A DNA stretch of 64,000 nucleotides from Rhododendron vialii. Taxonomy: Eukaryota; Streptophyta; Magnoliopsida; Ericales; Ericaceae. This document shows, one piece after another, positions 5,551 to 63,584 of this stretch; the stretch's first letter is position 1; each line of letters starts with the position of its first letter. The position numbers were made by a program, and so were the translations under genes. The notes under the pieces are model-generated. The model searched no databases. It had not been told where the DNA came from and saw only the letters and a list, made by a program, of their open reading frames with translations. The stretch lies in assembly GCF_030253575.1 (NCBI RefSeq), contig NC_080558.1:9682001-9746000 (forward strand), read 5' to 3'.

Positions 5551-5636
5551 GGAGCTTGCATTTCGCTTTTGCGATTGATTGATGAAAGAGAGGATGCCCC
5601 CGCTGCGGTACTAGCAATAAGGCTCTGTCAATTCTA

Positions 5637-18179: not shown

Positions 18180-18889
18180 CAGAATTTGTTACAAGTTTGA
18201 TTCTCTTGTTGCCTTGGCAGCAAGAGAATAATGTAGTTAAAAGTGAACTTCAGGATTCTCACCGTAACAGAAATAGACAGATGAATAAAAGCATCACGAT
18301 TTCGGAAAGGAATATTTACAAAAGATAACCGACTCATTTTCTAAACAGATTACCGAAGATCAGCAAATCGTTTTATTGCCCACATTTTGTTTTTGAACAA
18401 AGGATTGTTACGAAGGGCCCCATTTGAAAAGTTCGTATCGGGCCCCAAAAAAACTCATAGCCGGCCTTGTTTCTACTTAATTCGCTGGGAAATTTTGCTT
18501 AGATGTGAAGACGTGAGAGCTTTTTGAATTTGATTAGATCACACAACAAACAAGTAGGAGTAGAACTATATGATTAGTTAGTGAATCTACGAATTTATTT
18601 TTTATGTACTCGCAGATTTGCCGTGCGATAAGAAACATTGATCATTTGAAAATGGATCCTACTACAACAGTTTGATATATAGAAAAAAAGTTAACTGTTA
18701 CATTTTAAGAGTAAGAACACAATGAAATTTTTCCTGTAATATGAAAATTGGTCCAAATGGACCCTCAGTCCATCCGTATCCGGGTGCATGATTGTTTTTG
18801 TCTGAAATCGTGTGCATTGGAGTTCCAGTACTAGCGATAGAGCTCTGCCAATTCTCTTGCATTGCCAATGCAGATCGGAGGCTCCTCAC

Positions 18890-19595: not shown

Positions 19596-19722
19596 CTCAC
19601 TACGTGGTGTATCGACAGTCTTTGGATCCCCTGTTCAACCAAACAACTCAACGTTAACTTGACGAATTCCCTCAAACACTTTGGTCCTATTTTCCCAGTA
19701 AGGTGCGGATCCATGACCTGAT

Positions 19723-20034
19723 TGTTAAAAGTAATGCCTTGTTGTAATTTTGTATTTGGGCTAAATATTTATGTATGTGGGCTATAAAATGTAGTTTGTA
19801 TATGGGCCTCTTATATGTGTTTCAGTAATTTAGTTAGGCCCAAAGTTGTGTCTATATAAGTCCTTGTAAGAATTGTCTAGAACTAATGAGAAGTGAATGA
19901 AAAATCTGAGAGAGCTTTCCTCTGGTTTCCCCTGTTCGTGCGTCTCCCCGAGAGCTATTGCGGCATTCTATTGCTTGTTTAGTTGCTAATTTCTCCACTA
20001 ATCAACAAAGGTTCACCGCTAATCTCAGCCAACA
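19723..20034 (+). mobile_element. solo LTR, 312 bp, in copy B exon 4
   Basis: TGTTAAAAGTAATGCC ... CTCAGCCAACA flanked by CTGAT at 19718-19722 and 20035-20039. A TATA-like TCTATATAAG lies near 19851. Removal restores the pseudokinase sequence found in copy A (GACCTGAT-AA.TGTTCTCGG). Confidence 0.85.
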
Positions 20035-20158
20035 CTGATAACTGTTCTCGGATTGGAGAAATTTTTTGAACGAACCCCATAGTGGCACATCACGATGTTT
20101 GGGGTTCCGGTAGATATCCAACTGCTTGTCACAAGTCAGTACTTCCAACAACATTACA

Positions 20159-23100
20159 TGTTGGAAAAACGATTGCTGCAAAAACTGAACTGTTGGCGAA
20201 ACCTCCACAAATGTCGAAATACGCTTCGAGATACGACTATGTCGCTTTCCTAAAGACAATATTTGCCCCCACCAGATGGTATGCAAAGGTTTACAGCAAA
20301 TCTGTTACGGCCTTGAATTTTAATTTATTTTATTAATTAATTTGGCCATTATTTAATTTGATGTTATGATTGGGTCCTGATTAATTATTTTTGCGTACAC
20401 AACGGATACAACTGTTGTTATTATAACTACAAGGGTATGAGCTTGATTAACCATAGTAATTCAGTTTTTTACCTCAGTTAGAATTTTAAATATTTTGTTT
20501 AACTAGAAGGCTATAATTTTGGGTGTTCGTGATTAGTGGGTAGTTTTATAAAGTTACTCGTTAGGAGATATTTTGACGGAGTAGGGTTCTTATTTGGAGA
20601 GAACGTTTGTGACAAGAGATTGAGAGAACTTTGTGAGAAAGAGGAAAAGAGAGAGAGAAACGGCAGTCAAAGGTTTGGTGGCTTTGTGATCAATCGGGTA
20701 AGAGATTCTTGAACCCTTTATTCTTGTTCCTTTTTCCATTCTTTGCCGTTCGTAGGTTGAGGTAAAGTTTGACTTTTGGAAGGTATAAAACAATGGAATT
20801 ACTGAGAGGTTAATTGGGTTCCATTCTTTTGGCACCATTGGTTTTTCTTTTAATCCTATTGAAATATGGAGTAGTGGAGATGCGTGTGATATGGATGTGA
20901 GACCAGGTGTCTAAAAGTGTGCATGGCGGACGTGGGTCTGGCGAAGTGGTGTGCGGCGGTGCATGTGTTGGTTCAGTGCAAGAGGTGCCATAGGTTGGAG
21001 TTTGTGGGAGGATTTTAATATTTATAATTATAGACTTGTAGTGGAGTTAAATGGTTTTGGGAGTTAAAAATTGTTATGGGAGAGTTGAAGAAGTGGTGGC
21101 GTGGCAGGTTAGAGTTGGGTTTTGTTGCTACTGTTGGTTTAACACCGTAGGATTAGATTCTAGGTTTGGGCCTTTTACTAATTAATAATACTTCTACTTC
21201 AATGGTCAGTGATAGATATGTATTAATTAGTCAATTTATATGCTTTATTTTTACAGGTTAGTCTTTTTGCGTGTTCGAGTTGCATTACTTTTTGGACCCA
21301 GGTGAGTGGTTAAGCATGTTATGTACTTTCGAACTTCCCTGTGTCTCTTAAATTGTTATTTTGAGAAATTTACTATTGAAATTGGAAACACATATTGTTT
21401 ATATTTGATTATATTAAATTGGCATGCAGTATCGGTGAAATCATTTGTTGTTTAAATAATCTTTTGGTGAGAACTTTGTGGATATTGATGGGAACATATT
21501 TTTGAAGTCCAGAGAAATTAATCCTCTGTGTGCGGGTGACTCTGGCCATTAGAGAAGAGACCGGATTAAGCCGGTGACCCTAATGCTCAATGGTTGTTAT
21601 TGACCGGATCGTTCTTTGGGAAAAGTTCCACGGGCTGCCTACTCGTGGTGACCCTAAGATTCGATATTGGATTCAATTTTGAGATATTTATTCACTGGCA
21701 TTTGGTACTATTGATTTTGGTTGTGGTTCCCCATTGTTGTTGGAGATTGGATTGAGAACACCATTAAGACTTATCGAATGAATCGTTAATTGGATTAATG
21801 GATTATTTTGTTGTTCACCGCATATGCCAAATTATGTTGACATGGTAAATTATTTTGATCCCTATTTCAGAACCTTATTCTAATACATGCTTCGCCATTC
21901 ACTGAGCTCGTCAGCTGACAGATTTATTCCGACTTCTTTTTCAGGCAAGTAGGGCAATTAGGAGGACTCTGGTGGCATCTCGGGGATTTAGTTTGGTTGA
22001 CCTCCTTAGGGTGTCTCATCATATTTTTATTTTATTAATCGCTTCCGCATTTGAAACATTTGTCAGTATTGAATTCTTTTTATTATTGGTGGATCACTTG
22101 GTATTATTTGGTTCGTGGGATGTTTGTGCCCCATGCTTTTTGTTGAACTTAAATGGTTGGAGTTGTTTTTAATAAAAAAAAAGTGGTTGGCTGTTTAGTA
22201 GTTCTTTGCTTTGGAATTTAATTAAATTTCTTTTTAGGCTGCGTGTTCCATGGGTTAGTCTCATGGTTCACGGCCGGTCACTTACCATTTTAGGGTGTGA
22301 CAAAATCTGCTTTCAAAATAAATCGAAGTTCTCCGTTTGAGTTTTGCACTAACGAAACGGATAGAATACCTGCTGGATGAATATAAGAATCGAGAACCAC
22401 TGAATTCTGTTTTCTGCAGCAAAACAGAATGCAGAATGAATGCTAGGAAATATGGAGAGAGATGTGGGAGAAATTCGGCATATGTGTGTATATGAATTCT
22501 GTCAATTAGTGGTCTATTTATCGGCCACTACGCACCATTGTGAATGGGTACGCACTCGATCTAGTCTAACCATTGGATCAGATCCTATGGCCTTGATTGA
22601 CCAGTCACATCCAGTCACACCGAACTGGTGTACTATTTCATTCACACATAATCAGATTTGATCCAATCCGTTGGATCGTGCCTAATCGTGGCCGATGGCT
22701 GTGATTGCAACTTTATGAACCAGCGCACACATAGGCTTGAGTTGCACCGGATAGGAACCACTCCGTGTGACTCACCTGCCACGCGGCGTTCACGTCAACG
22801 CCATCTTACTGTCAACTCGCAATAAGAAAGGTAGGCGCCTAGCGCTGACGTGCTAAGTGCGCGCGCGTGTGTACTGGTGCAAAACGCCAATTCCACCTGT
22901 ATGGTGTTCGCATCATAGGCTACACCACACTAGATCATTATTTAATCATATTAGGAATGTTCCCTAATATATACCACTCCAACATCTCTCAATTAACCAA
23001 TGCGGGACCAAGCTCACAAAGAGAAAAACAAACATTCTAAAGAAATAAGAAAATTTACAAAACCAAAACGACTACTCTTTTATTTTGAAAATCTCTAACA
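20159..23100 (-). mobile_element. solo LTR (about 0.94 kb before nesting) in copy B exon 4
   Basis: On the minus strand it starts TGTTAGAGATTTTC at 23100 and ends GTTTTTCCAACA at 20159. It is flanked by exact TTACA duplications (20154-20158, 23101-23105). Its U5-like part (TTTGCTGTAAACC, then GGTGGGGGCAAATATTGTC) matches the LTR at 18890-19595. A 2.0 kb element is nested at 20303-22302. No gag-pol sequence was recognised, so a solo LTR is the best reading. Confidence 0.8.
20303..22302 (+). mobile_element. 2.0 kb gypsy-like solo LTR or non-coding element, nested
   Basis: Starts TGTTACGGCCTTG and ends TAGGGTGTGACA, with exact AAATC duplications at 20298-20302 and 22303-22307. The end is related to the LTR at 25248-26014 (both have a CATGG.TCACGGC.GGTCA block before GTGACA). 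No protein domain was recognised, so it is either a long solo LTR or a LARD-like element. Confidence 0.75.
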
Positions 23101-23453
23101 TTACACCAAATGAATACCGGTCATCCTCCTCATATATACACAGAGTCGTAGCCCCTTGTAACCAGTCTAGGTATGCCTGCGCTAGTATCGGTCTTAGTTC
23201 TTATGTCAGGAAGCATAACTTTTGCAACCCAGTTCTCATCCAGTAGAATACCGGATGGTTCAATGCGGCGGTAGTTGTGTTCACGCTCTTCGTTCACATA
23301 GAGCTACTCTAGTCCTTGCGCAGCTCCAATGCAAATGTGAAGTCGCATTTCCCAGGAAAAGTGGAGGATGTGCACGATGCAAATGATCTTGGAAGGACCC
23401 ATTTGCCATGTAATCGTGCACGAGGATCAGCTCGTCTCGCTCGGTGCAAAATA

Positions 23454-23754
23454 CTATCGGAGAGAGTATGTTGGGTTGGAGGAGCAGTTTCTTCGGATGA
23501 ATCTCATCCCCAACAGCTTTAAGTTTCTTACACCTCTTGATCGCAACATGAGATTTACCAAAAAGCTCTTTTTGAAATATTTTGTGGCATCACGAATGTC
23601 ACCAAGTGAGAAATGGCGGTATAACTGGGTACCAGTTTTCAACCAACGGTCCATCGTCTGAAATGCCTTGGTCCTTATTCCCTCATATCTTCCTGTGTGT
23701 TGGGATAACAATGCAAGATGCTCTAAGAACTCGGTAAGCAACTGAAGCCAATTC
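23454..23754 (-). pseudogene. copy B exon 4, first part, truncated pseudokinase
   Basis: Opens in phase with exon 3 and reads [20 protein letters not shown], the clathrin-to-linker joint, then the linker and FSLGDIRDATKYF. A deletion removes the glycine-loop and VAIK region and shifts the frame, ending at a stop at 23454. Homology continues out of frame to 23106. Confidence 0.75.
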
Positions 23755-23911
23755 CTGAAAACATAAGCTGAGAGTGTCAGGATCCGAAGCAGTTTTTTTT
23801 TTCTCTTCTCAACAAAGAAAGGAACCATTGAAAGGGATTACAATAGTTAAAAGGAGAGGACGCGAAGCAGTTAAGGAGACAGAGAAAGGGAGGCAGAGAG
23901 TGGGACCTGAC

Positions 23912-24048
23912 CTTTTCTCCAACTCCTCCACCAGCGGTTCAATTATAAGTAGAGAACGAACAGATAGAATAAGGCCTTTAACAAAATCTTCAGGGCAGTC
24001 GTCATCCAGCAGTTGCCTTACAACTAACAGAGCATTTCCTGGGTTTAC
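23912..24048 (-). CDS. copy B exon 3, clathrin heavy chain segment
   Basis: 137 nt between an acceptor ..GGATAG and a donor GTCAGG. Encodes [20 protein letters not shown] then [13 protein letters not shown], matching plant clathrin heavy chain apart from a few substitutions. Phase 0 in, phase 2 out, as in copy A. Confidence 0.8.
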
Positions 24049-26627: not shown

Positions 26628-26880
26628 CTTCTCAACATAATCTTCAATGTGGCTGAGCATGTTGTTCGAATAAAGGTAGTGGGTCAGCTCTGGAACAAAC
26701 CCAAAACGATCGCATACATTGATAAGTGGTCGTGCATCGCGAAGCTTTGCTTTCATCAAGAAGTTCTTTGTCTTCTCAGGGTCATAGATGTTGGATTCTC
26801 TTGTAACTCGTTCGACCTCCTCGATTTGTCCAGCCTTGGCAGCCGCCTTAATGTACTTAAAGTGAATTTCAGGATCTTCA
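26628..26880 (-). CDS. copy B exon 2, clathrin heavy chain segment
   Basis: 253 nt from acceptor TGTCACAG to donor GTAAGA. Encodes [20 protein letters not shown] and on through [19 protein letters not shown] to YVEK, near-identical to plant clathrin heavy chain CHCR-repeat sequence. Joins exon 1 in phase 2 (AG|T = Ser). Intron 1 is only 92 nt. Confidence 0.85.
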
Positions 26881-26972: not shown

Positions 26973-28222
26973 CTGGAGCTCAGCAAATCTTTTAATTGTC
27001 CACTTGAGGATCTATTCCCTCTGTTCATCAAAATCTGAAACGTTTTGGTCATTAATCCCTCTGTTCTTCCTCTCTGTTGGGATACTAATGCGAGTTCAAG
27101 GCTGCCCAACGCTTCGGCCATTGTGGGCCGTGATTTGGGACTTTGTTGCAAACAATTGTTGGCAAGTAGAACAAAAGACTTCAGACAACGTGGTGCTATT
27201 TGTCCTCTGAGAGAGGGGTCAATGACTCTGGCAAGCTTTCCCTCTTTGATGCATTCTTGAGCAAAACGGGCTAAACTTATTTGCTCCTCGCTAAGTTCTC
27301 TATCCACGGCCGGCCTCCCGCATAACACTTCTAACAATATCACACCAAATGCATACACATCAGATTTTGCTGTCAGTCTTTGAGTAATGAAATACTCAGG
27401 ATCAATATACCCAAATGTGCCCTTCACTTGTGTGCTTATATGGGTTATTGAGTGACTTGTAGTGCCTTTCGACAATCCAAAATCCGAAATCTTAGCTACC
27501 CAATTCTCGTCTATCAGAATGTTTGTGCTCTTCACATCTCGATGTATGAAACTCTGGCTGGTACCACTATGAAGGTGGTCTAATCCGCGGGCAGCACCAA
27601 TACAAATGTGGAGTCTTTGTTCCCACGAGAGAGGAGATATACTTGTATTGCTTTTTGTTGTATTTAGCTTGTAGAGATGACCGGCAAGGGCCCCACGAGC
27701 TATATATTCGTAAACAAGAATCATCTCATGACAGTCGTTGCAGTAGCCGATTAACGCGACAAGATTAGCATGCCGGAGTGTTGAAAGTATCTTGACCTCC
27801 ATCCAAAACTCTCCTGCACCTTGCTTGGACTCGGCATTCAACCGCTTTATGGCAACCATCGTGGCACCATCGTCGATGAACCCTTTATATACCTTACCGA
27901 ATCCCCCTTTCCCAATAACTGATGCGTCATCAAAATTGTTAGTCGCTATTAGTACCTCATCCAGTGAAAAGCAACGACAAGTGCCCTCAGACTCAATCAC
28001 ACCACCATCTATTGGATTCTGATTGTTTGTAAAGGGCAGCTGTTTGGACAAGGCTCCGGCTGAAACGACGTTCGAAGAGAGTAAGACGTTGGAAACCTTT
28101 GTCCCATTTCTTGAAAGATTGTTTCCGTCACTCGAATATGTACCACTAGAAACATTGACGACAAGGCTTACTGGTTGACTCATTTGCCCTTCTTCAAAAT
28201 TCCGGCTGTCTAAAGATGACAT
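26973..28222 (-). CDS. copy B exon 1, CrRLK1L-type kinase
   Basis: 416 codons plus 2 nt before donor [15 protein letters not shown] start, Ser/Asn-rich leader of about 85 residues without a membrane helix, then a full kinase domain: [11 protein letters not shown] (104-114), VAIK Lys126, HRD 227-229, DFG 247-249 and [17 protein letters not shown]. All catalytic residues are present. It closely parallels copy A exon 1. The tail SSSGQLKDLLSS passes into the clathrin exon. It belongs to the locus whose exon 4 is broken, so any product would lack the pseudokinase. Confidence 0.8.
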
Positions 28223-33959: not shown

Positions 33960-36214
33960 TGTATTCTGATAGGTACGTATGTAAATGTAGGTACATTTGT
34001 GCTCTCTAGCTAATTTATGCTTGTTATGTCTGTTAAGTATTTTACTTGGAGTTTCATACTCATTTTTCTCATTTTAGGACTTGCAATTGAATGGCACAAT
34101 TGAATGGCACATGGAGCTAAATTTAGGAGTTATAAGGTGATAGTTATAAATAATCCAATGGAGGGTCAAGTACTGCCGTTGGAGAATCAACTCATGCGGA
34201 GTTCTGAAACAATTTTTACCAATATCGGATTGAGCTAATTTTTTTTAGGAACCCATAAGAAAACATTTTAAGAATTACTTGCGATTTGAATCATCTTTGT
34301 AGGACTCGTAATGGGCCCCAAAAAATCATTTACTAACCCATAAAATGGAAGGCCAAACGCAGAATTGTTGAAGTGAATGAAGCAAAACGACGTTGTTTTG
34401 CCTGGACGACATGGACAACAAGCTCTCCGGGTTTGTCTTTACTCCTCCGCACGATCTTGGACTTGACCACTATATATTCTAGGAAATACATATTAGTAAT
34501 TCCTATTTTATACGTTCATTTTTTGGTACGATAAACGACAGACCAACTTTGCAAGAGTTCTTCATTTCAAGTGACAAAAATGCTATCTAAGACCCTTGAC
34601 AGAAATCATACCTTTTGAACATAACATTCAATGTAGCTGAGCATATTGTTTGAATAAAGGTGGTGGGTCAGATCTGGAACAAATCCAAAACGATCGCATA
34701 CATTCATAATTGGTCGTGCATTGCAAAGCTTTGCTTTCATCAAGAAGTTCTTTGTCTTCTCAGGGTCATAGAAGTTGGATTCTCTTGTCGTGCGTTCAAC
34801 CTCCTCAATTTTTCCAGCCTTGACAGCAGCCTTAATGTACTTAAAGTAAATTTCAGTATCTTCACTGTAACAGAAAATAGATCAATTAATGATAGAATCG
34901 AGATTTGGTAAGGAATATTAACAAAATACAACCGAATAATATATTTTCTAAATATGTTACCTGGGGCTCAGCAAAACATTTGATTGTCCACTTGACGAAC
35001 TGTTGTTCTTCCTCTCCCTCAACCAAGTGTCCATCATACTCTGAAACGCCTTGGTCATTATTCCCTCTGTTTTTCCTCTCTGTTGGGATACAATGCGAGC
35101 TCAAGGCTGCCCAACGCTTCGGCCATTATGGGTCATGATTTCGGAATTTCTTGCACACAATTGTTGGCAAGTACGACAAAAGACTTCAGACAATGTAGTG
35201 CTATTTTCCCACTGAGAGAGGGGTCAATGATTCCGGCAAGCTTTCCCTTTTTGATGCACTGTTGAGCCCAAAGGACTAAACTCTTTTGCTCCTCGCCTAG
35301 TTTTTTATCCACAGGTGGCCTCCCACATAACACTTCTAATAATACCACACCAAAGGCGTACACATCAGATTTTGCAGTTAGTGTCTGAGTACGGAAGTAA
35401 TCAAGATTCAAATAACTGAATGTGCCTTTCACTTGTGTGCTTATATGGGTTATTGAATGACTTGTAGTACCTTTAGACGATCAAAAATCCGAAATCTTAG
35501 CTACCCAATTCTCGTCTATCAGAATGTTTGTGGTCTTCACATCTCGATGTATGCAACTCTAGCTGGTACCACTATGAAGGTGGTCTAATCCGCTGGCGGC
35601 ACCAATACACATGTTGAGCCTCTGCTCCCACGAGGGAGGAGAAATACTCGTATTGCCTTTTGTTGTCTTTAGCTTGTAGAGATGATCGGCAAGGGTCGCA
35701 AGGGCTATATATTCGTAAACCAGAATCATCTCTTGACACTCGTTGCAGTAGCCGATCTATGCAACGATATTAGCATGCTAGAGCTTTGAAAGCATCTTGA
35801 TCTCCGTCCAAAACTCTCCTGCACCTTGCTTTGACTCGCCGCTTCATGGCAACCCTCGTAACACCGTCGTCGATGAATCCCTTGTATACCTTACCGAATC
35901 CCCCGTTCCCGATAACTAATGCATCAATGAAATTATTGGTCACTATTAGTACCTCTTCCAGTGAAAAGCAACGACCAGTACTGCCCTCTAACTGAACCAC
36001 ACCACCATGCTGACTCTTTGAAATGGGAAACCGGTTGGACGAGGTTCCGGCTGAAACATCTGAAGAGGGCAAGGCTTCAGAAACCTTTCTCACATTTCTT
36101 GAAAGGTTGTTGCCATGACTCGAATCCGTATCACCAGCAACGTTGGCGGCAAGGCTTACTGGTTGACTGATTTGCCCTGCTTCAAAATTCGATCCGTCTG
36201 TCTAAAGATGACAT
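33960..36214 (-). pseudogene. copy D: kinase-clathrin pseudogene, 3' truncated
   Basis: ATG at 36214 (MSSLDRRIEF, then a stop caused by a 4-bp GATC insertion). The leader and kinase continue in shifting frames (36093-35770, 35432-35133). Exon 1 ends at 34961 with a donor GTAACA. Exon 2 (34864-34612) is fully open and encodes the clathrin segment with several unusual changes ([23 protein letters not shown]). Intron 2 sequence continues to about 33960, where homology stops, so exons 3 and 4 are missing. It derives from a copy that already had the clathrin insert. Confidence 0.75.
34612..34864 (-). pseudogene. copy D exon 2, clathrin segment, still open
   Basis: 253 nt with intact acceptor (TGTTACAG) and a GTATGA donor. 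There is no stop in the expected frame although exon 1 is broken. It ends ECYVQK, where A has KGYVEK. Confidence 0.7.
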
Positions 36215-42196: not shown

Positions 42197-44494
42197 CTAT
42201 GATAGGAAAATTGGCCCAAATGGACCCTCTGTGGGCGAAAGATTTAGTGCTTCCTGATAAATATTGACAGAGATGTCTTCGGTCGAATTCGACTGTGTCC
42301 GAGCTGCAGAACTGGCATTAAGGCTCTTCCAATTCTCCTGCAAGTGCACTGCAAATTGGAGGCTCCTCACTACGAAGTCCATCGACCATCTTCGCATTAC
42401 CGGTTCAAACAAACAACGCCATGTTATCTTGACAAATTCCCCCAAACACTCTGATCCTATTTTCCCAACAAGCTGCGGATCCATGACCTGATATATGTTA
42501 TCGGATAGAATAATATCATCCAAAACATGCTTTAGTGACATGTCAGGATATTTAGGGTTCCTGTAGTCACCCAACTGCTTTCTTTCATCGAAAAATCTAC
42601 CCAACTGCTTGTTACAAATCAGTACTTCCAATAACATTACACCGAATGAGTACAAGACATCCCCCTGATATCTAGAGTTGTAGTGCATTGTAGTCGATCT
42701 AAGTAGGCATGTGCTGGTGTTGGTCATAGTTCTTACGTTGGAAAGCATAACTTTCGCGACCCAATTCTCATCCAGTAGAATGCTGCATGGTTTAATGCAG
42801 CGGTGTATGACTTCAAGCTCTCCGTTGGCATGGAGATATTCTAGTCCTTACGCAGCTCCAATGCAAATTTGAAGTCGCATTTCCCAGGAAGTGGGCTATC
42901 TTTATGATGCAAAGAATCTTGCAAGGACCCATTGGCCATGTAATCGTAAACGACGATCAGCTCGTCTCCCTCAGTGCAAAACCCTATCGGAGAAAGTATG
43001 TTTGGGTGGAGGAGCAGTCTCTTTCGATGAATCTCATCCCCAACACCTTCAAGTTTCTTAAACCTTATGATCGCAGCCACAAGGGCTTTACCATCAATAT
43101 TGACACTACCTTTATACACCTTGTCCGAATTACGTACCAAAAGGCTCTTACTGAAATCTTTTGTGGCTTCACGAATGTCAGCGAGTGAGAATTGACGGTA
43201 TAATTGGGCACCAGTTTTCGAATCTGATTTCCTAGGCGAATCATTTGATTTTCCACTTGAGGAACTGTTGTCCTGCCTCTCCCTCAACCACATGTCCATC
43301 ATACTTTTAATCGCATTTGTCATTATTCCCTTTGTTCTTTCTCTTTGTTGGGATAACTATGCGAGCTCAAGCTTACCCAACACATCAGCCATCGTAGGCC
43401 GTGATCTTGGACTTTCATTTAAACAATTGTTTGCAAGTACAACAAAAGACTTCAAACAACTTGGTGCTATTTGTCCACTGAGAGAGGGGTCGATGACTCT
43501 GGCAAGCTTTCCCTCTTTGATGCACTTTTGAGCCCAATGGGCTAAATTCATTTGGTCCTTGCTAAGTTTCCTATCCAAGGCTGGCCTCCCACATAACACT
43601 TCTAACAATACCACACCAAAAGCATACACATCGAATTTCGTAGTCAGTCTCTGAGTACGGTAGTAATCAGGATCCAAATAACCGAATGTGCCTTTCACTT
43701 GTGTGCTTATATGGGTTATTGAATGACTTGTAGGGCCTTTAGACAATTCAAAATTGGAAATCTTAGCTATCCGATTCTCGTCTATCAGAATGTCTGTGCT
43801 CTTCACATTTCGATGTATGAAACTCTGGCTGGTACCACTATGAAGGTAGTCTAATCCACGGGCGGCACCAATACACGTGTCGAGCCTTTGCTCCCATGAG
43901 GGAGAAGAAATACTCGAATTGCTTTTTGTTGTCTTTAGCTTGTAGAGATGATCGGCAAGGGTCCCAAGGGCTATATATTCATAAACCAGAATCATCTCCT
44001 GACACTCGTCGCAGTAGCCAATCAATGCAACGAGATTAGTATGCCGGAGTTTTGAAAGCATCTTGATCTCTGTCCAAAACTCTCTTGCACCTTGCTTGGA
44101 CTCGGCGTTCAACCGCTTTATGGCAACCATAGTAGCACCATCGTCGATGAATCCCTTATATACCTTACTGAATCCCCCGATCCCTGATAACTGATGCGTC
44201 ATTGAAATTGTTGGTTGCTATTAGTACCTCTTCCAGTGAAAAGCAATGACCACTGCCCTCTGACTGAACCACATCACCATCGATTCGATGCTGACTCTTT
44301 GAAATGGGCAACCGGTTGGACGAGGCTCCGGGTAGAGCAGGGTCTGAAGAGGGAAAGGCTTCGGAAAGCTTTGTCGCATTTCTCGAAAGATTGTTTCTGT
44401 GACTCGAGTCCGTACCAGTAGCAACATTGGCGACAAGCTTTAGTGGTTGACTAATTTTTCCTTCTTCAAAATTCCGACTGTCTAAAGAAGACAT
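42197..44494 (-). pseudogene. copy C: single-exon tandem kinase-pseudokinase, no clathrin, decayed
   Basis: The ATG at 44494 opens [18 protein letters not shown] frameshift near 44180 moves to the frame of 44202-43357 (kinase), which ends at a TAG where A and B have a leucine codon. The next frame (43323-42841) runs through the linker SSSSGKSNDSPRKSDSKTGA into FSLADIREATKDFSKSLL, the second kinase domain, with no intron and no clathrin sequence. A further indel and a CAA-to-TAA stop lie near 42850, and the C-terminal part is open to 42197 (TEGPFGPIF tail). In kinase 1, HRD is HRN and DFG is NFE; in kinase 2 the VAIK lysine is lost. It represents the architecture before clathrin capture. Confidence 0.8.
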
Positions 44495-54835: not shown

Positions 54836-55979
54836 CTATAATGCGAAAATTGGTCCAAGTGGACCCTCAGTCCATCCGTATCCGGGTGCATGATTTGGTG
54901 CTTGCCATTTTTTTTGGATCAGCTGATTTGGTGCTTGCCGACCAGAATTGGCGAAGATGTCTCTGTCCAAAATCTTCTGTATCGGAGTTCCAGTACTAGT
55001 GATCTGCCAATTCTTTTGCATTTCCAATGCAAGTTGGAGGCTCCTCACTATGTGGTGTATGGATGGTCTTTGGATCCCCTGTTCAAACAAACAACTCAAC
55101 GTTATCTTGACGAATTCCCTCAAACACTCCGGTCCTATTTCCCCAATAAGGTGCGGATCCATGACCTGATAAATGTTCTCGGATTGGAAAAAAATTCTGA
55201 ACGAATCCCGTAGTGGAACATCACGATGTTTAGGGTTCCGGTAGATATCCAACTGCTTGTTACAAGTCAGTACTTCCAACAACATTACACCGAATGAGCG
55301 CAGGTCATCCTCCTCATATACAGAGTCGTAGCCCCTTGTAACCAGTCTAGGTATGCCTGCGCCGATATCGGTCTTAGTTCTTATGTCAGGAAGCATAACT
55401 TTTGCAACCCAATTCTCATCCAATAGAATACTGGATGGTTCTATGTGGCGGTAGTTGAGTTCACGCTCTTCGTTCGCATAGAGATACTCTAGTCCTTGCG
55501 CAGCTCCAATGCAAATTTTAAGTCGCCTTTCCCACGAAAGTGGAGGATCTGCACGATGCAAATGATCTTGGAAGGACCCGTTTGCCATGTAATCATGCAC
55601 GACGATCAGCTTGCCTCTCTTGGTGCAAAATCCTATCAGAGAGAGTATGTTGGGGTGGAGCAGTTTCTTAAAATGACTCTCATCCACAACAGCTATAAGT
55701 TTCTTACACTTCTTGATCGCAACCACACGAGCTTTACCATCAATTAAGATACTACCTTTATACACCTTGTCCGAATTACGTACCAAAAAGCTCTTATTGA
55801 AATCTTTTGTGGCTTCACAAATGTCAGCAAGAGAGAAATGGCGGTATAACTGGGTACCAGTTTTCAACCACCGGTCAATCCTATGAAATGCCTTGGCCCT
55901 TATTCCCTCATTTCTTCCTCTATGTTGGGATAACAATGCAAGATGCTCCAAGAACTCGGTAAGCAATCGAAGCCGTTTC
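54836..55979 (-). CDS. copy A exon 4: end of clathrin segment, linker and pseudokinase
   Basis: Starts after acceptor TTTTCAG. First residues [12 protein letters not shown] are clathrin; from [10 protein letters not shown] onward it is kinase linker. The pseudokinase keeps [32 protein letters not shown] and the C-lobe, but the HRDxK site reads YRHIE and the DFG site LPD. An in-exon repeat (QAPNQ / QAPNH) precedes the C-terminal GPIFAL. Confidence 0.85.
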
Positions 55980-58900
55980 CTGAAAACATAAGCTGTGTGT
56001 CAAGATTCGAAACAGTTTTTTTTCTCAACAATGAAAGGTTTTTATTAACCATTGAAAGGAGGAGAGGATGCGAAGCAGTTAAGGAGATGAGAAAGGGAGG
56101 CAGAGAGTGGGAGCTGACCTTTTCTCAAACTCCTCCAGCAGTGGTTCAATTATAAGCAGAGAACGAACAGATAGAATAAGGCCTTTGATAAAATCTTCAG
56201 GGCAGTCGTCATCCAGCAGTTGCCTTACAACTAACAGAGCATTTCGTGGGTTTACCTATGCAGAGAAATTCAAGAATAGTTCAGCACTCTAGCCTTCTGA
56301 TAGGTATGTAAATGTACCCATTTACTCTCTCTAGCTAGTTTATGCGTGTTGCGTATGTTTAGTGTATTACTTGGGGCTTGATACTCGTTTTCCTTATTCC
56401 AGAACTGTTGGGGATTCGAACGTCCAAACCCACAAGCAAACGCACACAATCGAAGAACAAATCAAGAACAGAAAACAATATAAAGTAAGAAAAGAACAAG
56501 ACACAGAGATTACGTGGTTCCGACTTAAGCTGATTGCTTAATCGTACGTCCACGGGGTGCTGGGGTGTTTCACTATGATGAAAATATGTCAGAGTTACAA
56601 AAAAGAGGCAGCCCTAGCTTTGCTTTTATATGTGCAAACAAGCTAATACTAGAAAACCCTAAAAAACGCTAAAACCTGCGTTGGGCGGGACCCAAAACCT
56701 TCCGGGTCATTTTTACTGCGACTCTAAAATTGTCTTCACATCTCAACAATCTCCCACTTGAAGACATGATTAGACATCCAGCCAATCATCAACTATCATT
56801 AACACCACCAGCACCCAGCCTCCCACTCAAGCTTGGAGACCCACAGAAGCTGAACAAGACTTCAGCTTCTCCACAGTAACCACCTTCGTAAACATGTCTG
56901 CCGGATTATCCCTTGTGTGAATCTTCTCCAAAGTGAACTGCCCATCCTCCAATAAAGAGCGAATAAAGTGATACTTTATGTCAATATGCTTGGTCCTCGA
57001 ATGAAAAGCTGCGTTCTTTGCCAGATGTATTGCACTCTGACTATCGCTAAACAATTTGCAATTGTCCTGTTCCTTACCCAACTCTTTCATGAAGCTCCTT
57101 AGCCATACCATCTCCTTGCATGCCTCCGTGGCTGCAACATACTCCGCCTCTGTTGTGGAAATAGTCACTATTTTCTGTAGCCGCGAGACCCAATCAACTG
57201 CTGCACTCCCCAGTGTAAAAACATACCCAGTAGTGCTCTTCCTGCTGTCAATGTCCCCTGCTAAATCCGAATCCACATATCCTTGCAAACAAATATCAGA
57301 ACCTCCAAAACACAAAGCCAAATCAGAAGTACCTCTCAGATACCGCAAAATCCACTTGACTGCCTCCCAATGCTCCTTGCCTGGATTTGCCATAAACCTG
57401 CTGACAACTCCCACTGCTTGAGCAATGTCTGGCCTTGTGCTAACCATAGCATACATCAAGCTGCCTACCGCCGAGGCATATGGAACTTTGGCCATGTAGT
57501 TCTTTTCTTCATCAGTTACTGCCCCTTTTTCCCTTGAAAGCTTGAAGTGACTTGCCAACGGTGTGCTAACGGGCTTAGCACCTTCCATGTTGAACCTTTT
57601 GAGCACCTTTTCAACATATTCCTCCTGTGACAACTTCAACTTTCGGTTCACCCTGTCCCTACTGATTCGCATCCCAAGGATTTTCTTTGCAGAACCCAAA
57701 TCCTTCATTGCAAACTCCCTGGACAGCTGTGCCTTGAGATTAGCAATCTCATCCATGCTTGAACCTGCAACAAGCATATCATCTACATACAACAAAAGTA
57801 TGAGATACGATTTACCAAGCTTCTTAAAATAACAACAGTGATCCCCATGACATCTACTGAACCCCGTATTTGTCATAAAGGTATCAAACCTTTTATACCA
57901 CTGCCTAGGCGCCTGCTTCAACCCATACAGACTCCTTCGAAGCTTACATACCTGATCCTCTTTCCCATTGACAACAAAACCCTCTGGCTGATGCATATAA
58001 ATATCCTCCTCTAAATCCCCATGAAGGAAAGCAGTTTTAACATCTAACTGCTCTAAGTGCAAATTCTCAACAGCCACAATATTAAGGACACATCTGATAG
58101 TACAAATCTTTACCACAGGAGAAAAGATTTCGGTGTAGTCAATACCTGGTTTCTGCTCAAAACCCTTTACTACCAACCTCGCCTTGTACCGTTTGCTCCC
58201 ATCAGATTCTTCCTTAAGCCTGTATACCCATTTGTTGTGCAAAGTTCTCTTCCCCTTGGGCAACTGAACCAAGTCCCAAGTCTGGTTTGATGAGAGAGAA
58301 TCCATCTCATCATCCATTGCTCGCTCCCACTCTCCCCTGGTCTCCACCTGCAATGCTTCCTTAAAACATTCTGGTTCACCACTATCAGTTAACAACAAAT
58401 AGTGTAAAGCAGGAGAATAACGCATTGGTGGTTTAACGGTACGTGTAGACCTCTTGAGTGGAGGAGTCTGTGGATCTGCCTGTGGAGTAGGTTGTATATT
58501 AATATCCTGAGACTGTAAGACATTACTGTCAGGGATCCCCTCAAACTCTACAAAGTCTGAATTTTCTTTAGCCTCATCGGGTTGATTCTGTCTATTTCTA
58601 TACAAAACAGACTCATTAAATACCACATCCATACTCCTGCGTGTTTTCCGATTTTCAAAATCATATAGCCTATACCCATAGCTATCAGTACCATAGCCTA
58701 TGAACACGCACTTTCGAGACTTAGCATCAAGTTTACCCCTATCACTCGATTCAATATGCATATAGGCCATGCAACCAAATACTCGTAAATGAGATAAATT
58801 TACCTCTTTACCTGACCAAGTCTCCTCCGGCAATCCATTGTTCAAAGGAACTGAAGGTCCCCTGTTGATCAAATACGCCGCTGTATTTACTGCGTCAGCC

Positions 58901-61900
58901 CAGAATTGCTTAGGTAACCCAGCATGTAACCTCATGCTCCTTGCGCGCTCTAGGATCGTCCTATTCATGCGCTCAGCAACTCCATTCTGCCTTGGCTTCT
59001 TTGGGATCGTTTTCAACCTTCGAATCCCATTTGCAGCACAGTAAGCCTCAAACTCACCATCACAATACTCGCCGCCATTATCAGATTTCAGACACTTCAA
59101 TTTCTTTCCTGTTTCATTCTCAACTAATGCTTTCCAATTCTTGAAAACACCAAACACATCAGATTTATGCTTGAGAAAATAAACCCATAATTTTCTAGTA
59201 GCATCATCAATGAAAGTAACAAAATAACATGAGCCACCAAGAGAAGATACCTGAGATGGTCCCCACACGTCTGTATGAACCAACTCCAACTTCTCTAATT
59301 TTAGAGTTTTTGCCACCTTTGTAAAGCTAACTTTCCTCTGTTTCCCGAAGATGCAATCCTCACAGAAGTCCAAGTCCAGCGACTTACAACCCGGCAATTT
59401 CCCTTTTGACAACATTACTTTCATCCCCTTTTCGCTCATGTGACCCAGCCTACGATGCCACGTAGTACAATTAACCACTGATGCTGCCACTGCGATGCTA
59501 CAGTAAGTACCCGAAGATACATATAAGGTTCCTTCCTTTTTACCGCGAGCCACAACCAGTGCCCCTTTGCTCATCTTCCAAGCGTCTGATGTAAACGATG
59601 TGACCACTCCACCCTCTGACAACTGACCCACCGAAATAAGATTCCTTGTTAGACTAGGCACATGTCTAACATCCTTCAATTTCAGTACTGTCCCGTCTGT
59701 CTGAGTCATATACACATCCCCTTTCCCAATTATGTTGCAAGATTCATCATCACCCAGATAAACTTTTCCAAAGTTTCCCTGCACATAATTCTGTAGCACA
59801 TCCATGCGTGAAGTAGCATGGAATGAGGCTCCCGAGTCTACAATCCAAGACTCATCGCGAGAATCCAGCGAACAAATCAAGGCTTCATTATCCGATTCCT
59901 CAGAAACATTTACAGTGTTCTTACCCCCCTGATTATTCCCGTTCTGCTGCTTTTTCGGTGGTGCCTTACAGTCTCGCTTCCAATGCCCCAACTGACCACA
60001 GTTCCAACAACCTTCAGGTTTCACTTCTCTAGTACGAGATTTACTCCTGCCCCTGTTCTTGGAACTCCCTCTTCCCTTGCCCTTGTTGCCTCCCCTATTT
60101 GCAGACCTGCCTCTGTCCTCTATACTAAGTGCTGAACCCGAAGCAACATCCTCACCTGATGCTCTCCTCCTAGCCTCTTCTCCTAATATCAATCCAGTAA
60201 CATCCTCCAATTTAATTGTTGCAGACCAGGAGGAATTACTCACTGCCACGACAAGTCCATTCCAACTTTCTGGCAAACTCGATAGTAGAACAAGAGCTCT
60301 AATCTCATCATCAAAATTAATACCCACGGATTCTAACTGATTCGTGACCGTATTAAATTCATTCAGATGTTCAGCAACAATAGAGTTTTCAGGCATCTTT
60401 AGGTTAAACAATTTTTTCATAAGATATACCTTGTTCACCGCAGAAGGTTTCTCGTACATCTTTTCTAGGGCTTTGAACAAATCTGCTGTAGTCTTTTCTT
60501 TGGCAATATTCGACGCAACCGACGGCGCGAGGCTCAATCGCACAGTCCCCAAAGCTTTGCGATCCAAAATATCCCAATCTGCTTGCTTTATGCTTTCTGG
60601 TTTTGTGCCACTGATCGGATGATATAGATCCTTCTGATACAAAATATCCTCCATCTGCATCTTCCAGAAAGCATAGTTTGTACCATTGAACTTCTCGATC
60701 TTGTATTTTTCTTCAGCCATTGTGTAAACCCTTGACCTCCTAACCCGGAGCTCTGATACCAGTTGTTGGGGATTCGAACGTCCAAACCCACAAGCAAACG
60801 CACACAATTGAAGAACAAATCAAGAACAGAAAACAATATAAAGTAAGAAAAGAACAAGACACAGAGATTACGTGGTTCCGACTTAAGCTGATTGCTTAAT
60901 CGTACGTCCACGGGGTGCTGGGGTGTTTCACTATGATGAAAATATGTCAGAGTTACAAAAAAGAGGCAGCCCTAGCTTTGCTTTTATATGTGCAAACAAG
61001 CTAATACTAGAAAACCCTAAAAAACGCTAAAACCTGCGTTGGGCGGGACCCAAAACCTTCCGGGTCATTTTTACTGCGACTCTAAAATTGTCTTCACATC
61101 TCAACAAGAACTTGTGGAGTAATTGAAAGGCACACGGAGCTAATTGAGGAGTTAAACGTGATAATAGCAAATAATGCCAACCCTCCTGTATTTTTGTGTT
61201 GAATAATTACTATGGCTTTTAATTACGATTATATTGCAAGGGCTTGGTGGAATCGAAACCCCGGTCCCTTCTTTCTCCTGTTTTCAAAACCTTAATTCAT
61301 TCTTACAATAATTTAAGTTTTAACCAATCGGAATTCAATTCCATTTCATTTGGGAATTAAATTAGAAATCAATTGAATCTACAACATCTTAGCTTTTTAC
61401 CCCTGGGAACGATCTTGGACTTAACACCCGGTCTAGGGAATAATCGTTAATTCCCAGTTTATAAATTCATTTTTGTTGCAATAAATTAACGACTGACCAT
61501 GTTCACAAGAGTTCTCAATTTTGAGTGACGAAAATGCTATCTAAGACCCTTGACAAAATTCTTACCTTCTCAACGTAACCTTTAATGTAGCTGAGCATGT
61601 TGTTTGCATACAGGTAGTGGGTCAGCTCTGGAACAAACCCAAAACGATCGCATACATTGATAAGTGGTCGTGCATCGCGAAGCTTTGTTTTCATCAAGAA
61701 GTTCTTTGTCTTTTCAGGATCATAGAAGTTAGATACTCTTGTAACGCGTTCGACCTCCTCGATTTGTCCAGCCTTGGCAGCCGCCTTAATGTACTTAAAG
61801 TGAATTTCAGGATCTTCACTGTGACAGAAAATAGGTCAATGAATGAAATAATTAGGATTTGGATAGGCTAGCGGCCCTGTTCTGCTAAGGGGTCTTAAAA

Positions 61901-63584
61901 TATAAGTACTTATTCGCAATTTTTTTTGTCACCTGTTGTGATTTTTCTAGTAGTGAAGTTTATTACTCCCTCCGTCCCATAATATTTGTCGAGTCCGCAA
62001 AATAGGGACTATAAAATAATGTATTTCTTTCAAGAAAAAATTCAAATTTTTTTCATAAGTTAAAAGAACTCGTTAAGATCTAGTAAATTGTTGAATTTTT
62101 TTCCAACTTTTCTTACAAAATTGTATTATTTTTACGTCTTTGTTTTGCGGACCGGACAAATATTATGGGACTGAGGGAGTATTTTTTAAGCTTGAAAATT
62201 ATAAATAAGTACCTATTTTTTAAGAACTTTTAGCGGAACACAACAAAATATAACCGAATCATTTCCTAGATATATTACCTGGAGCTCAGCAAATCATTTG
62301 ATTGTTTTCCTAGATATATTACCTGGAGCTCAGCAAATCATTTGATTGTCCACTTGAGGAACTGTTGTCCTTCCTCTCCTTCAACCTGTCCAGCATACTC
62401 TGAAACGCCTTGGTCATTATTCCCTCTGTTCTTCCTCTATGTTTGGATAACAATGCGAGCAAGCTACCCAACACTTCAGCCATCGTAGGCCGTGATCTTG
62501 GACTTTCACTTAAACAATTTTTGGCAAGTACAACAAAAGACTTCAAACAAGGTTGTGCTATTTGTCCACTGAGAGAGGGGTCGATGACTCTGGCAAGCTT
62601 TCCCTCTCTGATGCACCGTTGAGTCCAATGGGCTAAATTCATCTGCTCCTCGCTGAGTTTCCTATCCAAGGCTGGCCTCCCACATAACACTTCTAACAAT
62701 ACCACACCAAAGGCATACACATCAGATTTCGCAGTCAGTCTAAGAGTACGGAAGTAATCAGGATCCAAATACCCGAATGTGCCTTTCACTTCTGTGCTTA
62801 TATGGGTTATTGAATGACTTGTAGGGCCTTTAGACAATCCAAAATCCGAAATCTTAGCTACCCAATTCTCGTCTATCAGAATGTTTGTGCTCTTCACATC
62901 TCGATGTATGAAACTCTGGCTGGTACCACTATGAAGGTGGTCTAATCCACGGGCGGCACCAATACACATGTCAAGCCTTTCCTCCCAAGAGAGAGGAGAA
63001 AACCTCATATTGCTTTCAGTTGTCTTTACCTTGTAGAGATGATCGGCAAGGGTCCCAAGAGCTATATACTCATAAACAAGAATCATCTCTTGACACTCGT
63101 TGCAGTAGCCGATTAGCGCAACGAGATTAGCATGTCGGAGCTTCGAAAGCATCTTGACCTCCATCCAAAACTCTCCCGCACCTTGCTTGGACTCGGCATT
63201 CAACCGCTTTATGGCAACTATCGTAGCACTATCATCGATGAACCCTTTATATACCTTACCGAATCCCCCGATCCCGATAACTAATGCATCATCAAAATTG
63301 TTTGTCGCTATTAGTACCTCATCCAGTGAAAAGGAACGACAGGTGCCCTCAGACTCAATCACACCAACATCGATTGGATTCTGATTGTTTGAAAAGGGCA
63401 ACTGTTTGGACGAGGCTCCGGCTGAAACGACGTCTGATGAGGGTAAGACGTCGGAAACCTTTGTCCCATTTCTTGAAAGATTGTTTCCGTGACTCGAATA
63501 TGTACCACTAGAAACATTGACAGCAAGACTTACTGGTTGATTAATTTGCCCTTCTTCAAAATTCCGGCTGTCTAAAGATGACAT
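54836..63584 (-). CDS. copy A: kinase-clathrin-pseudokinase chimera (intact, 4 exons)
   Basis: Exons 63584-62323, 61818-61566, 56255-56119 and 55979-54836 splice in frame (GT..AG throughout) to 931 residues with no stop. Residues 1-97 are a Ser/Asn-rich leader with no signal peptide or membrane helix. About 98-375 is a CrRLK1L-like kinase with glycine loop 104-109, VAIK Lys126, HRD 227-229 and DFG 247-249, so probably active. About 417-562 is clathrin heavy chain CHCR-repeat sequence. About 605-870 is a second kinase of the same descent with a ruined glycine loop, HRD replaced by YRH (727-729) and DFG by LPD (747-749), although its VAIK lysine (640) remains. The tail is [13 protein letters not shown]. 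The product should be cytosolic. Intron 2 holds a copia element. Function is inferred only: tandem kinase proteins such as wheat Yr15/WTK1 act in immunity, so a decoy or endocytosis-linked signalling role is possible. Confidence 0.85.
56119..56255 (-). CDS. copy A exon 3, clathrin heavy chain segment
   Basis: 137 nt, acceptor CTCTGCATAG and donor GTCAGC. Encodes [20 protein letters not shown] then [13 protein letters not shown] and EPLLEEFEK, a clathrin heavy chain exon with a few replacements. Intron 3 is 139 nt. Confidence 0.85.
56406..56748 (-). repeat. 3' LTR of the copia element
   Basis: 343 bp, TGTTGAGATG...CCCCAACA on the minus strand, with a TATA-like CATATAAAAGC near 56632. Identical to the 5' LTR except C versus T at 56450. 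Confidence 0.95.
56827..60720 (-). CDS. gag-pol polyprotein of the copia element
   Basis: The ATG at 60720 ([13 protein letters not shown]) is chosen over the longer frame because upstream codons lie in the primer-site and LTR region. 1297 residues, no stops. Copia order: gag with a CCHC knuckle (Cys238, Cys241, His246, Cys251); protease DSG at 295-297; integrase with HHCC (His422, His427, Cys453, Cys456) and catalytic Asp484, Asp547, Glu583; reverse transcriptase with YVDD at 978-981; then RNase H with [10 protein letters not shown] near the C-terminus. All catalytic residues I checked are present. It would supply capsid, processing, cDNA synthesis and integration. Closest in style to tobacco Tnt1. 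Confidence 0.95.
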   Translation of the reverse strand: MAEEKYKIEKFNGTNYAFWKMQMEDILYQKDLYHPISGTKPESIKQADWDILDRKALGTVRLSLAPSVASNIAKEKTTADLFKALEKMYEKPSAVNKVYLMKKLFNLKMPENSIVAEHLNEFNTVTNQLESVGINFDDEIRALVLLSSLPESWNGLVVAVSNSSWSATIKLEDVTGLILGEEARRRASGEDVASGSALSIEDRGRSANRGGNKGKGRGSSKNRGRSKSRTREVKPEGCWNCGQLGHWKRDCKAPPKKQQNGNNQGGKNTVNVSEESDNEALICSLDSRDESWIVDSGASFHATSRMDVLQNYVQGNFGKVYLGDDESCNIIGKGDVYMTQTDGTVLKLKDVRHVPSLTRNLISVGQLSEGGVVTSFTSDAWKMSKGALVVARGKKEGTLYVSSGTYCSIAVAASVVNCTTWHRRLGHMSEKGMKVMLSKGKLPGCKSLDLDFCEDCIFGKQRKVSFTKVAKTLKLEKLELVHTDVWGPSQVSSLGGSCYFVTFIDDATRKLWVYFLKHKSDVFGVFKNWKALVENETGKKLKCLKSDNGGEYCDGEFEAYCAANGIRRLKTIPKKPRQNGVAERMNRTILERARSMRLHAGLPKQFWADAVNTAAYLINRGPSVPLNNGLPEETWSGKEVNLSHLRVFGCMAYMHIESSDRGKLDAKSRKCVFIGYGTDSYGYRLYDFENRKTRRSMDVVFNESVLYRNRQNQPDEAKENSDFVEFEGIPDSNVLQSQDINIQPTPQADPQTPPLKRSTRTVKPPMRYSPALHYLLLTDSGEPECFKEALQVETRGEWERAMDDEMDSLSSNQTWDLVQLPKGKRTLHNKWVYRLKEESDGSKRYKARLVVKGFEQKPGIDYTEIFSPVVKICTIRCVLNIVAVENLHLEQLDVKTAFLHGDLEEDIYMHQPEGFVVNGKEDQVCKLRRSLYGLKQAPRQWYKRFDTFMTNTGFSRCHGDHCCYFKKLGKSYLILLLYVDDMLVAGSSMDEIANLKAQLSREFAMKDLGSAKKILGMRISRDRVNRKLKLSQEEYVEKVLKRFNMEGAKPVSTPLASHFKLSREKGAVTDEEKNYMAKVPYASAVGSLMYAMVSTRPDIAQAVGVVSRFMANPGKEHWEAVKWILRYLRGTSDLALCFGGSDICLQGYVDSDLAGDIDSRKSTTGYVFTLGSAAVDWVSRLQKIVTISTTEAEYVAATEACKEMVWLRSFMKELGKEQDNCKLFSDSQSAIHLAKNAAFHSRTKHIDIKYHFIRSLLEDGQFTLEKIHTRDNPADMFTKVVTVEKLKSCSASVGLQA
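60750..60761 (-). other. primer binding site
   Basis: Minus strand TGGTATCAGAGC, complementary to the 3' end of initiator methionine tRNA, two bases from the 5' LTR. Confidence 0.9.
60764..61106 (-). repeat. 5' LTR of the copia element
   Basis: 343 bp, carries the element promoter. One difference from the 3' LTR. Confidence 0.95.
61566..61818 (-). CDS. copy A exon 2, clathrin heavy chain segment
   Basis: 253 nt from acceptor TGTCACAG to donor GTAAGA, fully open: [60 protein letters not shown], then YVEK. It enters in phase 2 and leaves in phase 0. Differences from the canonical plant sequence include LRDARP where clathrin has LPDARP. Confidence 0.9.
61874..62241. mobile_element. MITE in intron 1 of copy A, with nested Stowaway
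   Basis: Ends CTGTTCTGCTAAGGGGTCTT and AAGAACTTTTAGCGGAACAC are inverted. It is absent from intron 1 of copies B and D, which are 92 and 96 nt. The Stowaway at 61966-62179 lies inside. Confidence 0.65.
61966..62179. mobile_element. Stowaway-type MITE
   Basis: CTCCCTCCGTCCCATAATAT and inverted ATATTATGGGACTGAGGGAG, flanked by TA. Related to 50868-51081. Confidence 0.85.
62262..62349. repeat. 44-bp perfect tandem duplication over the exon 1 donor of copy A
   Basis: 62262-62305 and 62306-62349 are identical. The unit contains the end of exon 1 and the GTAATA donor, so two identical donors exist. Using the distal one would include an in-frame TAA. Confidence 0.95.
62323..63584 (-). CDS. copy A exon 1, CrRLK1L-type kinase
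   Basis: 420 codons plus AG before donor GTAATA. The leader [20 protein letters not shown] is conserved across copies and is followed by a Ser-rich stretch. The kinase domain resembles the cytoplasmic domain of FERONIA-family receptors and keeps the ATP-binding and catalytic residues (Lys126, Asp229, Asp247). The glycine loop is GIGGFG. The activation segment is [11 protein letters not shown]. The linker [19 protein letters not shown] reappears after the clathrin insert in exon 4. The last residues LLSS already belong to clathrin. Confidence 0.88.

Follow-up and report, generated by a model that had tools for sequence, protein, structure and literature searches.

How a piece of the clathrin heavy chain came to lie between two receptor-type kinases, and what such a protein may do, is the question raised by a gene on the minus strand of Rhododendron vialii contig NC_080558.1 (assembly GCF_030253575.1). 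The window analyzed here is the stretch of 64,000 nucleotides from 9,682,001 to 9,746,000, and all positions below are counted from its first letter. The gene, called copy A, is very probably a real chimeric gene from a family seen here only in Ericaceae and probably built in two steps, and the best explanation as a whole, with a probability of about 0.42, is that this two-step chimera acts as a tandem-kinase immune fusion. A first-pass annotation of the DNA, made from its letters, had described the gene and proposed that the clathrin part is an integrated decoy or a link to the endocytic machinery. Its observation of a fusion gene is confirmed, while its interpretation found partial support.

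Copy A has four exons, with GT-AG at all three introns and 931 in-frame codons followed by a stop, and its translation equals isoform X3 (P0005) of the R. vialii RefSeq gene LOC131315714 in every letter, in agreement with the cleanly spliced, stop-free model proposed before. Its parts are as follows:

62323..63584, minus strand: exon 1, with the start codon, N-terminus, kinase 1 and linker (gene model, Pfam and PDB search)
63338-62427, minus strand: kinase 1, residues 83-386, within exon 1
61566..61818, minus strand: exon 2, clathrin heavy chain, residues 421-505 (Pfam, bovine alignment and the ratio of nonsynonymous to synonymous substitution rates, dN/dS)
56119..56255, minus strand: exon 3, clathrin heavy chain, residues 506-550 (gene model and bovine alignment)
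54836..55979, minus strand: exon 4, with the final 13 clathrin residues 552-564 (55979-55940), then kinase 2; a shortened kinase linker lies between the clathrin end and kinase 2, in one reading frame
55903-55028, minus strand: kinase 2 (pseudokinase), residues 577-868, with the stop codon at 54838-54836

At an E value of 0.01, Pfam finds kinase and clathrin families only in the product, namely two kinase stretches (the best at residues 102-373) and Clathrin (PF00637) at residues 420-526 with an E value of 1.4e-18, and no malectin-like domain. The clathrin piece, with 143 residues, aligns to residues 722-863 of the bovine heavy chain (E about 1e-45), which bears out the roughly 145 residues of genuine heavy chain claimed earlier; it is distal-leg sequence and not a whole heavy chain, the terminal domain and the trimer hub being absent from it. 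FERONIA is the best PDB relative of both kinases, with E values of 6e-106 for kinase 1 and 3e-48 for kinase 2, in line with the proposed CrRLK1L descent; kinase and clathrin matches of such strength are not due to chance. Kinase 1 retains the glycine loop, VAIK, HRD and DFG, whereas kinase 2 retains VAIK but reads YRHIEPSS where HRD would stand and VMLPDIR where DFG would, so that the order of an active-looking kinase and a pseudokinase stands. The loss of HRD and DFG from kinase 2 recurs in every kinase-clathrin-kinase model that extends that far. Regarding the overall fold, structure prediction of P0005 gave the expected domains in an arrangement that is not usable (mean predicted local distance difference test, pLDDT, of 66; predicted template modelling score, pTM, of 0.40), with residues 421-570 predicted as helical (block pLDDT 58-79). 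As a guide to transmembrane segments, hydropathy averaged over 19 residues peaks at a mean of 1.70 at residue 527, within the clathrin part.

The single-gene treatment of the first-pass annotation does not hold, as copy A belongs to a Rhododendron and Vaccinium family and has alternative kinase heads annotated. Within the window itself, a tandem array of the same family is found, with all matches on the minus strand:

26973..28222, minus strand: copy B exon 1, coding for kinase 1 (82% identity with copy A)
26628..26880, minus strand: copy B clathrin exon 2
23912..24048, minus strand: copy B clathrin exon 3
18737..23774, minus strand: copy B exon 4, the end of clathrin with kinase 2, broken into scattered pieces in several frames
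34609..36198, minus strand: copy C, a broken kinase 1 and then clathrin exon 2
42206..44494, minus strand: copy D, the linker directly between kinase 1 and kinase 2, without clathrin; broken, with a linker stop and frame breaks
14174..15370, minus strand: lone family member without clathrin, a kinase sharing 66% identity with kinase 1
29566-28984, 38255-38103, 41692-41037 and 47736-47578, minus strand: four further fragments of the same family

Copy B (28222-18737) matches RefSeq model P0012, of 646 amino acids and named PIX13.

The junctions of copy A differ in what they require. The clathrin/kinase-2 join lies inside exon 4 and needs no splicing, while the kinase-1/clathrin join depends on splicing from exon 1 to exon 2. 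One rival account is an annotation or splicing artefact, in which kinase 1 is a gene of its own and the clathrin-kinase 2 part a downstream fragment, both chained by automatic models. An in-frame stop directly past the exon 1 donor when read through speaks for this, and retention of intron 1 would be predicted to yield a protein of kinase 1 only; the four kinase heads placed on one RefSeq tail, described below, are also expected of run-on chaining, and the models P0002 and P0140 look merged. Nevertheless, the donor (AG/GTAATA, phase 2) meets an exon 2 that opens in phase 2, its position is common to copies A, B and C, the same junction is present in 16 models from five species, and clathrin and kinase 2 share one exon of copy A, which leaves the artefact as a very unlikely account. 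The exon 1 donor region is duplicated, 44 bases apart (62279-62336), with the second copy past the in-frame stop.

Outside the window, the family was followed with a junction query made of residues 365-470 of P0050, across the kinase/clathrin join, which matched 76 proteins from 113 candidates. The linker is joined to clathrin in 19 of these 76, distributed among R. vialii (six, one gene contributing four isoforms), R. simsii (five), R. molle (three), R. griersonianum (three) and Vaccinium darrowii (two). A kinase family is listed for 17 of the 19, the two without it being both Vaccinium models, and for none of the other 56 matches, counted apart from P0152 of R. williamsianum, a partial clathrin-to-kinase-2 piece. 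P0002 and P0164 of R. griersonianum are also in the kinase-clathrin family, and a pattern of the linker plus the clathrin start matches 16 of 268 proteins, from R. vialii, R. simsii, R. molle, R. griersonianum and Vaccinium darrowii. The full kinase-clathrin-kinase order, for which a protein search had been proposed, was found in eight gene models (P0002, P0005, P0009, P0010, P0011, P0014, P0127 and P0140) of four Rhododendron species. Relatives were taken as the best 120 of 296 matches to the clathrin part, where Aristolochia P0001, P0003 and P0004 are clathrin-only by their Pfam listing, and as the best 120 of 1776 in another relative search, so that weaker relatives may be missing; the 76 matches of the junction query were listed in full. 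Among the matches listed, the fusion family appears only in Ericaceae; Heliosperma P0064, with an unlike kinase ahead of a large heavy chain part, was judged a merged gene model and set aside. Three R. griersonianum models (P0002, P0140 and P0164) read kinase-clathrin-kinase-clathrin-kinase or have additional kinases behind, representing either merged neighbours, which P0002 and P0140 resemble, or tandem duplication of the clathrin-kinase-2 exons.

Regarding the origin of the clathrin part, a tree of 29 segments separates 11 heavy chain rows from 18 fusion rows at 100/97, and groups the 10 kinase-clathrin-kinase rows at 91/76, surrounded by eight kinase-clathrin rows that include two from Vaccinium. 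The tree fits a single clathrin capture that preceded the split of Rhododendron and Vaccinium, with the pseudokinase added afterwards, and one capture suffices for all fusions; independent captures in each species are not required by it. At residues 432, 441, 464 and 468, the usual heavy chain letter is missing in all 18 fusion rows, with the charge mostly altered, and a rule-based comparison gives ten positions that differ between the fusions and a heavy chain that is almost invariant otherwise. The introns inside the captured piece are apparently native: at the start of intron 2, where VR(I/V)LSRVLDS is found in copies A and B, P0122, a clathrin-only protein of R. simsii (Rhsim12G0075700), reads VRVLSRILYS and apparently reads through the same intron start. 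Besides this apparent read-through, P0122 has a doubled exon, and it may be related to the gene that supplied the piece. A retroposed clathrin complementary DNA was judged unlikely in view of the introns inside the piece, one start of which resembles P0122.

The second junction records how the pseudokinase may have been joined. In P0050, P0099, P0121, P0027 and P0125, clathrin runs past LEHL into VSEGSQDVHVHNALGK or close variants, whereas copy A diverges after LEHL into ALLSQHRGR, a kinase tail. Past LEHL, exon 4 of copy A resembles first the tail of its own kinase 1, at 86% identity over 65 bases (against copy D, 74% over 82), and then the kinase 2 start of copy D, at 92% over 118 bases. Exon 4 likely arose when a kinase-clathrin gene recombined with a neighbouring kinase-kinase gene, the exchange falling on a leucine codon common to both or close to it. 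In a kinase tree of 53 domains, the clathrin-free kinase 2 of the copy D type (Rgri_3922 and Rsim_65000) and that of P0163, a kinase-pseudokinase protein without clathrin, fall outside the 100/99 group of kinase-clathrin-kinase pseudokinases, a position expected under a two-step origin. Probably, the kinase-clathrin form was first, and the kinase-clathrin-pseudokinase form followed by joining the pseudokinase of a neighbour. In the first step, a genomic heavy chain piece, introns included, would have landed behind a CrRLK1L-type kinase exon and become spliced to it, giving the kinase-clathrin form of Rhododendron and Vaccinium; in the second, within Rhododendron, the clathrin exon would have been joined near the shared leucine codon to a kinase tail and the pseudokinase of a neighbour, which would have shortened the clathrin.

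Selection was estimated as dN/dS by the Nei-Gojobori method between window copies, with bootstrap ranges. The clathrin part of copies A and B (143 codons, 12 synonymous and 14 nonsynonymous differences) has a dN/dS of 0.31 (0.16-0.63; Fisher p 0.005), with 0.24 for A-B and 0.35 for A-C in exon 2, so that the neutral ratio which, combined with absent expression, the first-pass annotation would have taken as refuting its reading was not obtained. Kinase 1 gives 0.35 (0.25-0.51) for A-B and 0.41 (0.24-0.68) for A-D, while kinase 2 gives 0.96, 0.88 and 0.52 for A-B in three pieces and 0.47 and 0.84 for A-D. The alignable pieces of intron 2 are 73-92% identical between A and B (four matches), and clathrin dS is 0.14. 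Among the models, the trio P0010, P0009 and P0014 is 96-97% identical in kinase 1, 95-97% in clathrin and 86-92% in the part behind clathrin, and copy A against the second unit of P0002 is 94%, 96% and 95% identical in kinase 1, clathrin and the kinase-2 part, respectively. From these comparisons, clathrin and kinase 1 look held by constraint and kinase 2, by its ratios, looks less so; the pseudokinase part evolves faster in the trio but not between copy A and the P0002 unit. A neutral pseudogene was rejected for copy A, given its open frame, its constrained clathrin and kinase 1 and an architecture modelled in four species, whereas it was accepted for kinase 2 of copy B and for copies C and D.

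For the locus annotated by RefSeq, the four isoforms X1-X4 of LOC131315714 (P0005-P0008) have identical final 510 residues, the clathrin-pseudokinase part, and differ over the whole first exon, with 76-88% identity between heads that all stop at the same linker point. In the kinase tree, head X4 is separate from X1-X3. Only the X3 head is present in the window (62323-63584), and as the best window matches of X1, X2 and X4 stay at 87% or less, these three heads are expected upstream, beyond position 64000. The RefSeq pipeline derives such isoforms from transcript alignments. The locus is either one of variable first exons or one of run-on splicing between neighbours, two arrangements that differ in regulation and make the same proteins. 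It is possible, though doubtful, that it works as a combinatorial gene, where at least four upstream kinase-1 first exons would each be spliced to one constant clathrin-pseudokinase tail, so that a single bait would be paired with varying active kinases in the manner of protocadherins or UGT1A. A literature search on alternative first exons in tandem receptor-like kinases gave what are, by their listing, transcriptome studies.

As to function, copy A may encode a soluble immune fusion of the tandem-kinase type. Its kinase 1 would signal, while the pseudokinase and clathrin piece together would regulate or serve as bait, detecting proteins by which pathogens act on clathrin or on receptor-like kinases. 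The alternative heads on one tail would then vary the signalling part and keep the bait constant, and the signal would perhaps pass to a nucleotide-binding leucine-rich repeat (NLR) protein, as reported for wheat WTK3, which works with the NLR WTN1 (PMC12839863). The closest precedent is Lr9, which has kinase-vWA relatives and gained its second kinase by acquisition; its authors hypothesise that kinase 2 and vWA are integrated decoys (PMC10260399). In Nicotiana benthamiana, silencing of clathrin heavy chain reduces RXLR effector uptake and infection (PMC10291037), which makes clathrin a sensible bait. By analogy with these systems, a working immune fusion with kinase 2 and clathrin as its bait is a tentative proposal, and a weaker one than the chimeric gene itself.

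The main rival to the immune fusion is endocytic coupling or interference, in which the clathrin piece would dock kinase 1 on coated pits or disturb the lattice, tuning the internalisation of FERONIA-type receptors. It draws on a contiguous, constrained heavy chain stretch predicted as helices over residues 421-570 and on the FERONIA descent of both kinases, CrRLK1L receptors being known to undergo endocytosis. Clathrin light chain binds the proximal leg of the heavy chain, so that coupling through it, which the first-pass annotation had suggested examining, is unlikely with a captured piece from the distal leg. In addition, the 143 residues lack the terminal domain, the hub and this light chain site, the ten altered heavy chain positions, four of them in all 18 fusion rows, might weaken lattice contacts, and confidence in the predicted domain arrangement is low (pTM 0.40). 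Endocytic coupling is accordingly held as unlikely, and the immune fusion is kept as the preferred function.

Several points weigh against the immune fusion and the two-step chimera on which it depends. The proteins of other species and the RefSeq isoforms are computed models, compared as proteins; P0002, P0014, P0127 and P0140 are modelled without 12 clathrin residues at the exon 2/3 border and P0011 without the start of kinase 1, and the Vaccinium darrowii models P0027 and P0125 keep the N-terminus, linker and clathrin and miss most of kinase 1, being either broken genes or predictions across a damaged exon. The clathrin tree has a number of weak inner branches, and in the kinase tree, two R. 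molle kinase-kinase genes fall inside the group of kinase-clathrin-kinase pseudokinases, which implies later clathrin loss or domain reshuffling. Regarding selection, the A-B and A-C comparisons take in copies that are now broken, two clathrin ratios are compatible with neutrality (B-C in exon 2, 0.45, 0.20-1.08; A-B in the exon 3 and 4 part, 0.44, 0.12-1.48), and the kinase 2 ratios of 0.47-0.96, obtained with partners B and D broken there, fit decay as well. We know of no pathogen protein that binds this heavy chain segment, and the effector Pi04314 showed no direct binding to clathrin light chain in the cytoplasm in the RXLR study (PMC10291037). Moreover, intron 2 of copy A is interrupted by a retrotransposon with long terminal repeats (LTR), which could impair long transcripts:

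56406..61106, minus strand: full-length Ty1/Copia LTR retrotransposon of 4.7 kb in intron 2 of copy A, in the same orientation as the gene
56406-56748 and 60764-61106: its LTRs, with one mismatch in 344 aligned bases (99.7% alike)
56401-56405 and 61107-61111: its 5-bp target duplication, AGAAC
60819-56827, minus strand: its open frame of 1330 codons

Intron 2 of copy B, of 2579 bases, is homologous to both flanks of this insertion. Substitution rates of about 0.7-1.3e-8 per site per year date the element to some 0.1-0.2 million years ago.

The recent Copia element, the broken copies B, C and D and the kinase 2 ratios are also what would be seen if copy A had arisen by chance as genes were gained and lost in a tandem kinase array, with low transcription, no function of its own and an apparent constraint dating from before its decay. 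Against such a by-product, kinase-clathrin-kinase models occur in four Rhododendron species, the clathrin part of the trio P0010, P0009 and P0014 is 95-97% identical, like its kinase 1 at 96-97%, and the A-B ratios of clathrin and kinase 1 are about one third. This origin is considered improbable, and a constrained family of two-step chimeras is retained.

Two further elements were observed in the window. Intron 1 of copy A contains an inverted-repeat element at 61966-62181, noticed by eye, with CTCCCTCCGTCCC-like ends, which we take to resemble a Stowaway-type miniature inverted-repeat transposable element. An RNase H-like open frame (RVT_3, PF13456) lies at 5634-5984 on the minus strand and is perhaps derived from a retroelement.

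Among the immune proteins of plants, tandem-kinase fusions are a class both young and important, known above all from wheat and related species. If the proposed function is true, a eudicot woody lineage would be added to this class, with the clathrin heavy chain as a new integrated domain drawn from the machinery of oomycete effector uptake; and if the alternative heads are real, a plant gene would mix kinases on a fixed sensor. The intermediates in the same array suggest an order of assembly, domain capture and then the second kinase, similar to that suggested by the Lr9 authors. The first-pass annotation knew of no kinase-pseudokinase-clathrin fusion, and likewise, among the papers listed, our literature search found no tandem kinase with clathrin, none in Rhododendron and no receptor-like kinase with clathrin in Rhododendron, broader searches covering part of their matches (20 of 372 and 15 of 30), although subscription papers and recent atlases may mention one; the match for kinase fusion proteins, clathrin and resistance concerned, by its listing, a rust adaptor subunit. 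The family is real and shared across species, and its clathrin part would be an addition to the known class of tandem kinase fusions.

Compared with known systems, both kinases of copy A are closest in PDB to FERONIA of the CrRLK1L group; however, copy A has no malectin-like domain by Pfam, has lost the catalytic motifs of kinase 2 and has gained clathrin. In UGT1A and the protocadherins, clustered variable first exons, each encoding a domain, are joined to constant downstream exons. The RefSeq isoforms X1-X4, known here from annotation alone, resemble this arrangement, but the heads of LOC131315714 encode kinases, whereas the first exons of UGT1A and the protocadherins encode enzyme and adhesion domains, respectively.

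Among tandem kinase-pseudokinase proteins (TKPs), represented by WTK1/Yr15, the first kinase has the key residues and the second is degenerate (PMC6170490), as in copy A, and copy A also has both domains from one family, as do 52 of the 92 TKPs, those of duplication origin. Meanwhile, the 92 surveyed TKPs are described as having no additional conserved domain, a description from which Lr9 departs (PMC10260399) and from which copy A differs by the clathrin segment (PF00637) between its kinases. WTK1 is a WAK-RLCK fusion with a non-RD first kinase (KinI), while copy A has CrRLK1L kinases, of which kinase 1 is RD. Sr43 (PMC10260397, as described in PMC10260399) combines a kinase with foreign domains that are suggested decoys, similar to copy A, but has one kinase and two domains of unknown function. 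WTK6-vWA (Lr9/Lr58, PMC10260399), whose resistance is proven by mutants and silencing while the copy A family is known here from gene models, has vWA/Vwaint at the C-terminus and belongs to grasses, in contrast to the clathrin between kinases in Ericaceae; nonetheless, both have an extra domain, relatives in which that domain is fused to a single kinase, and a second kinase that was acquired.

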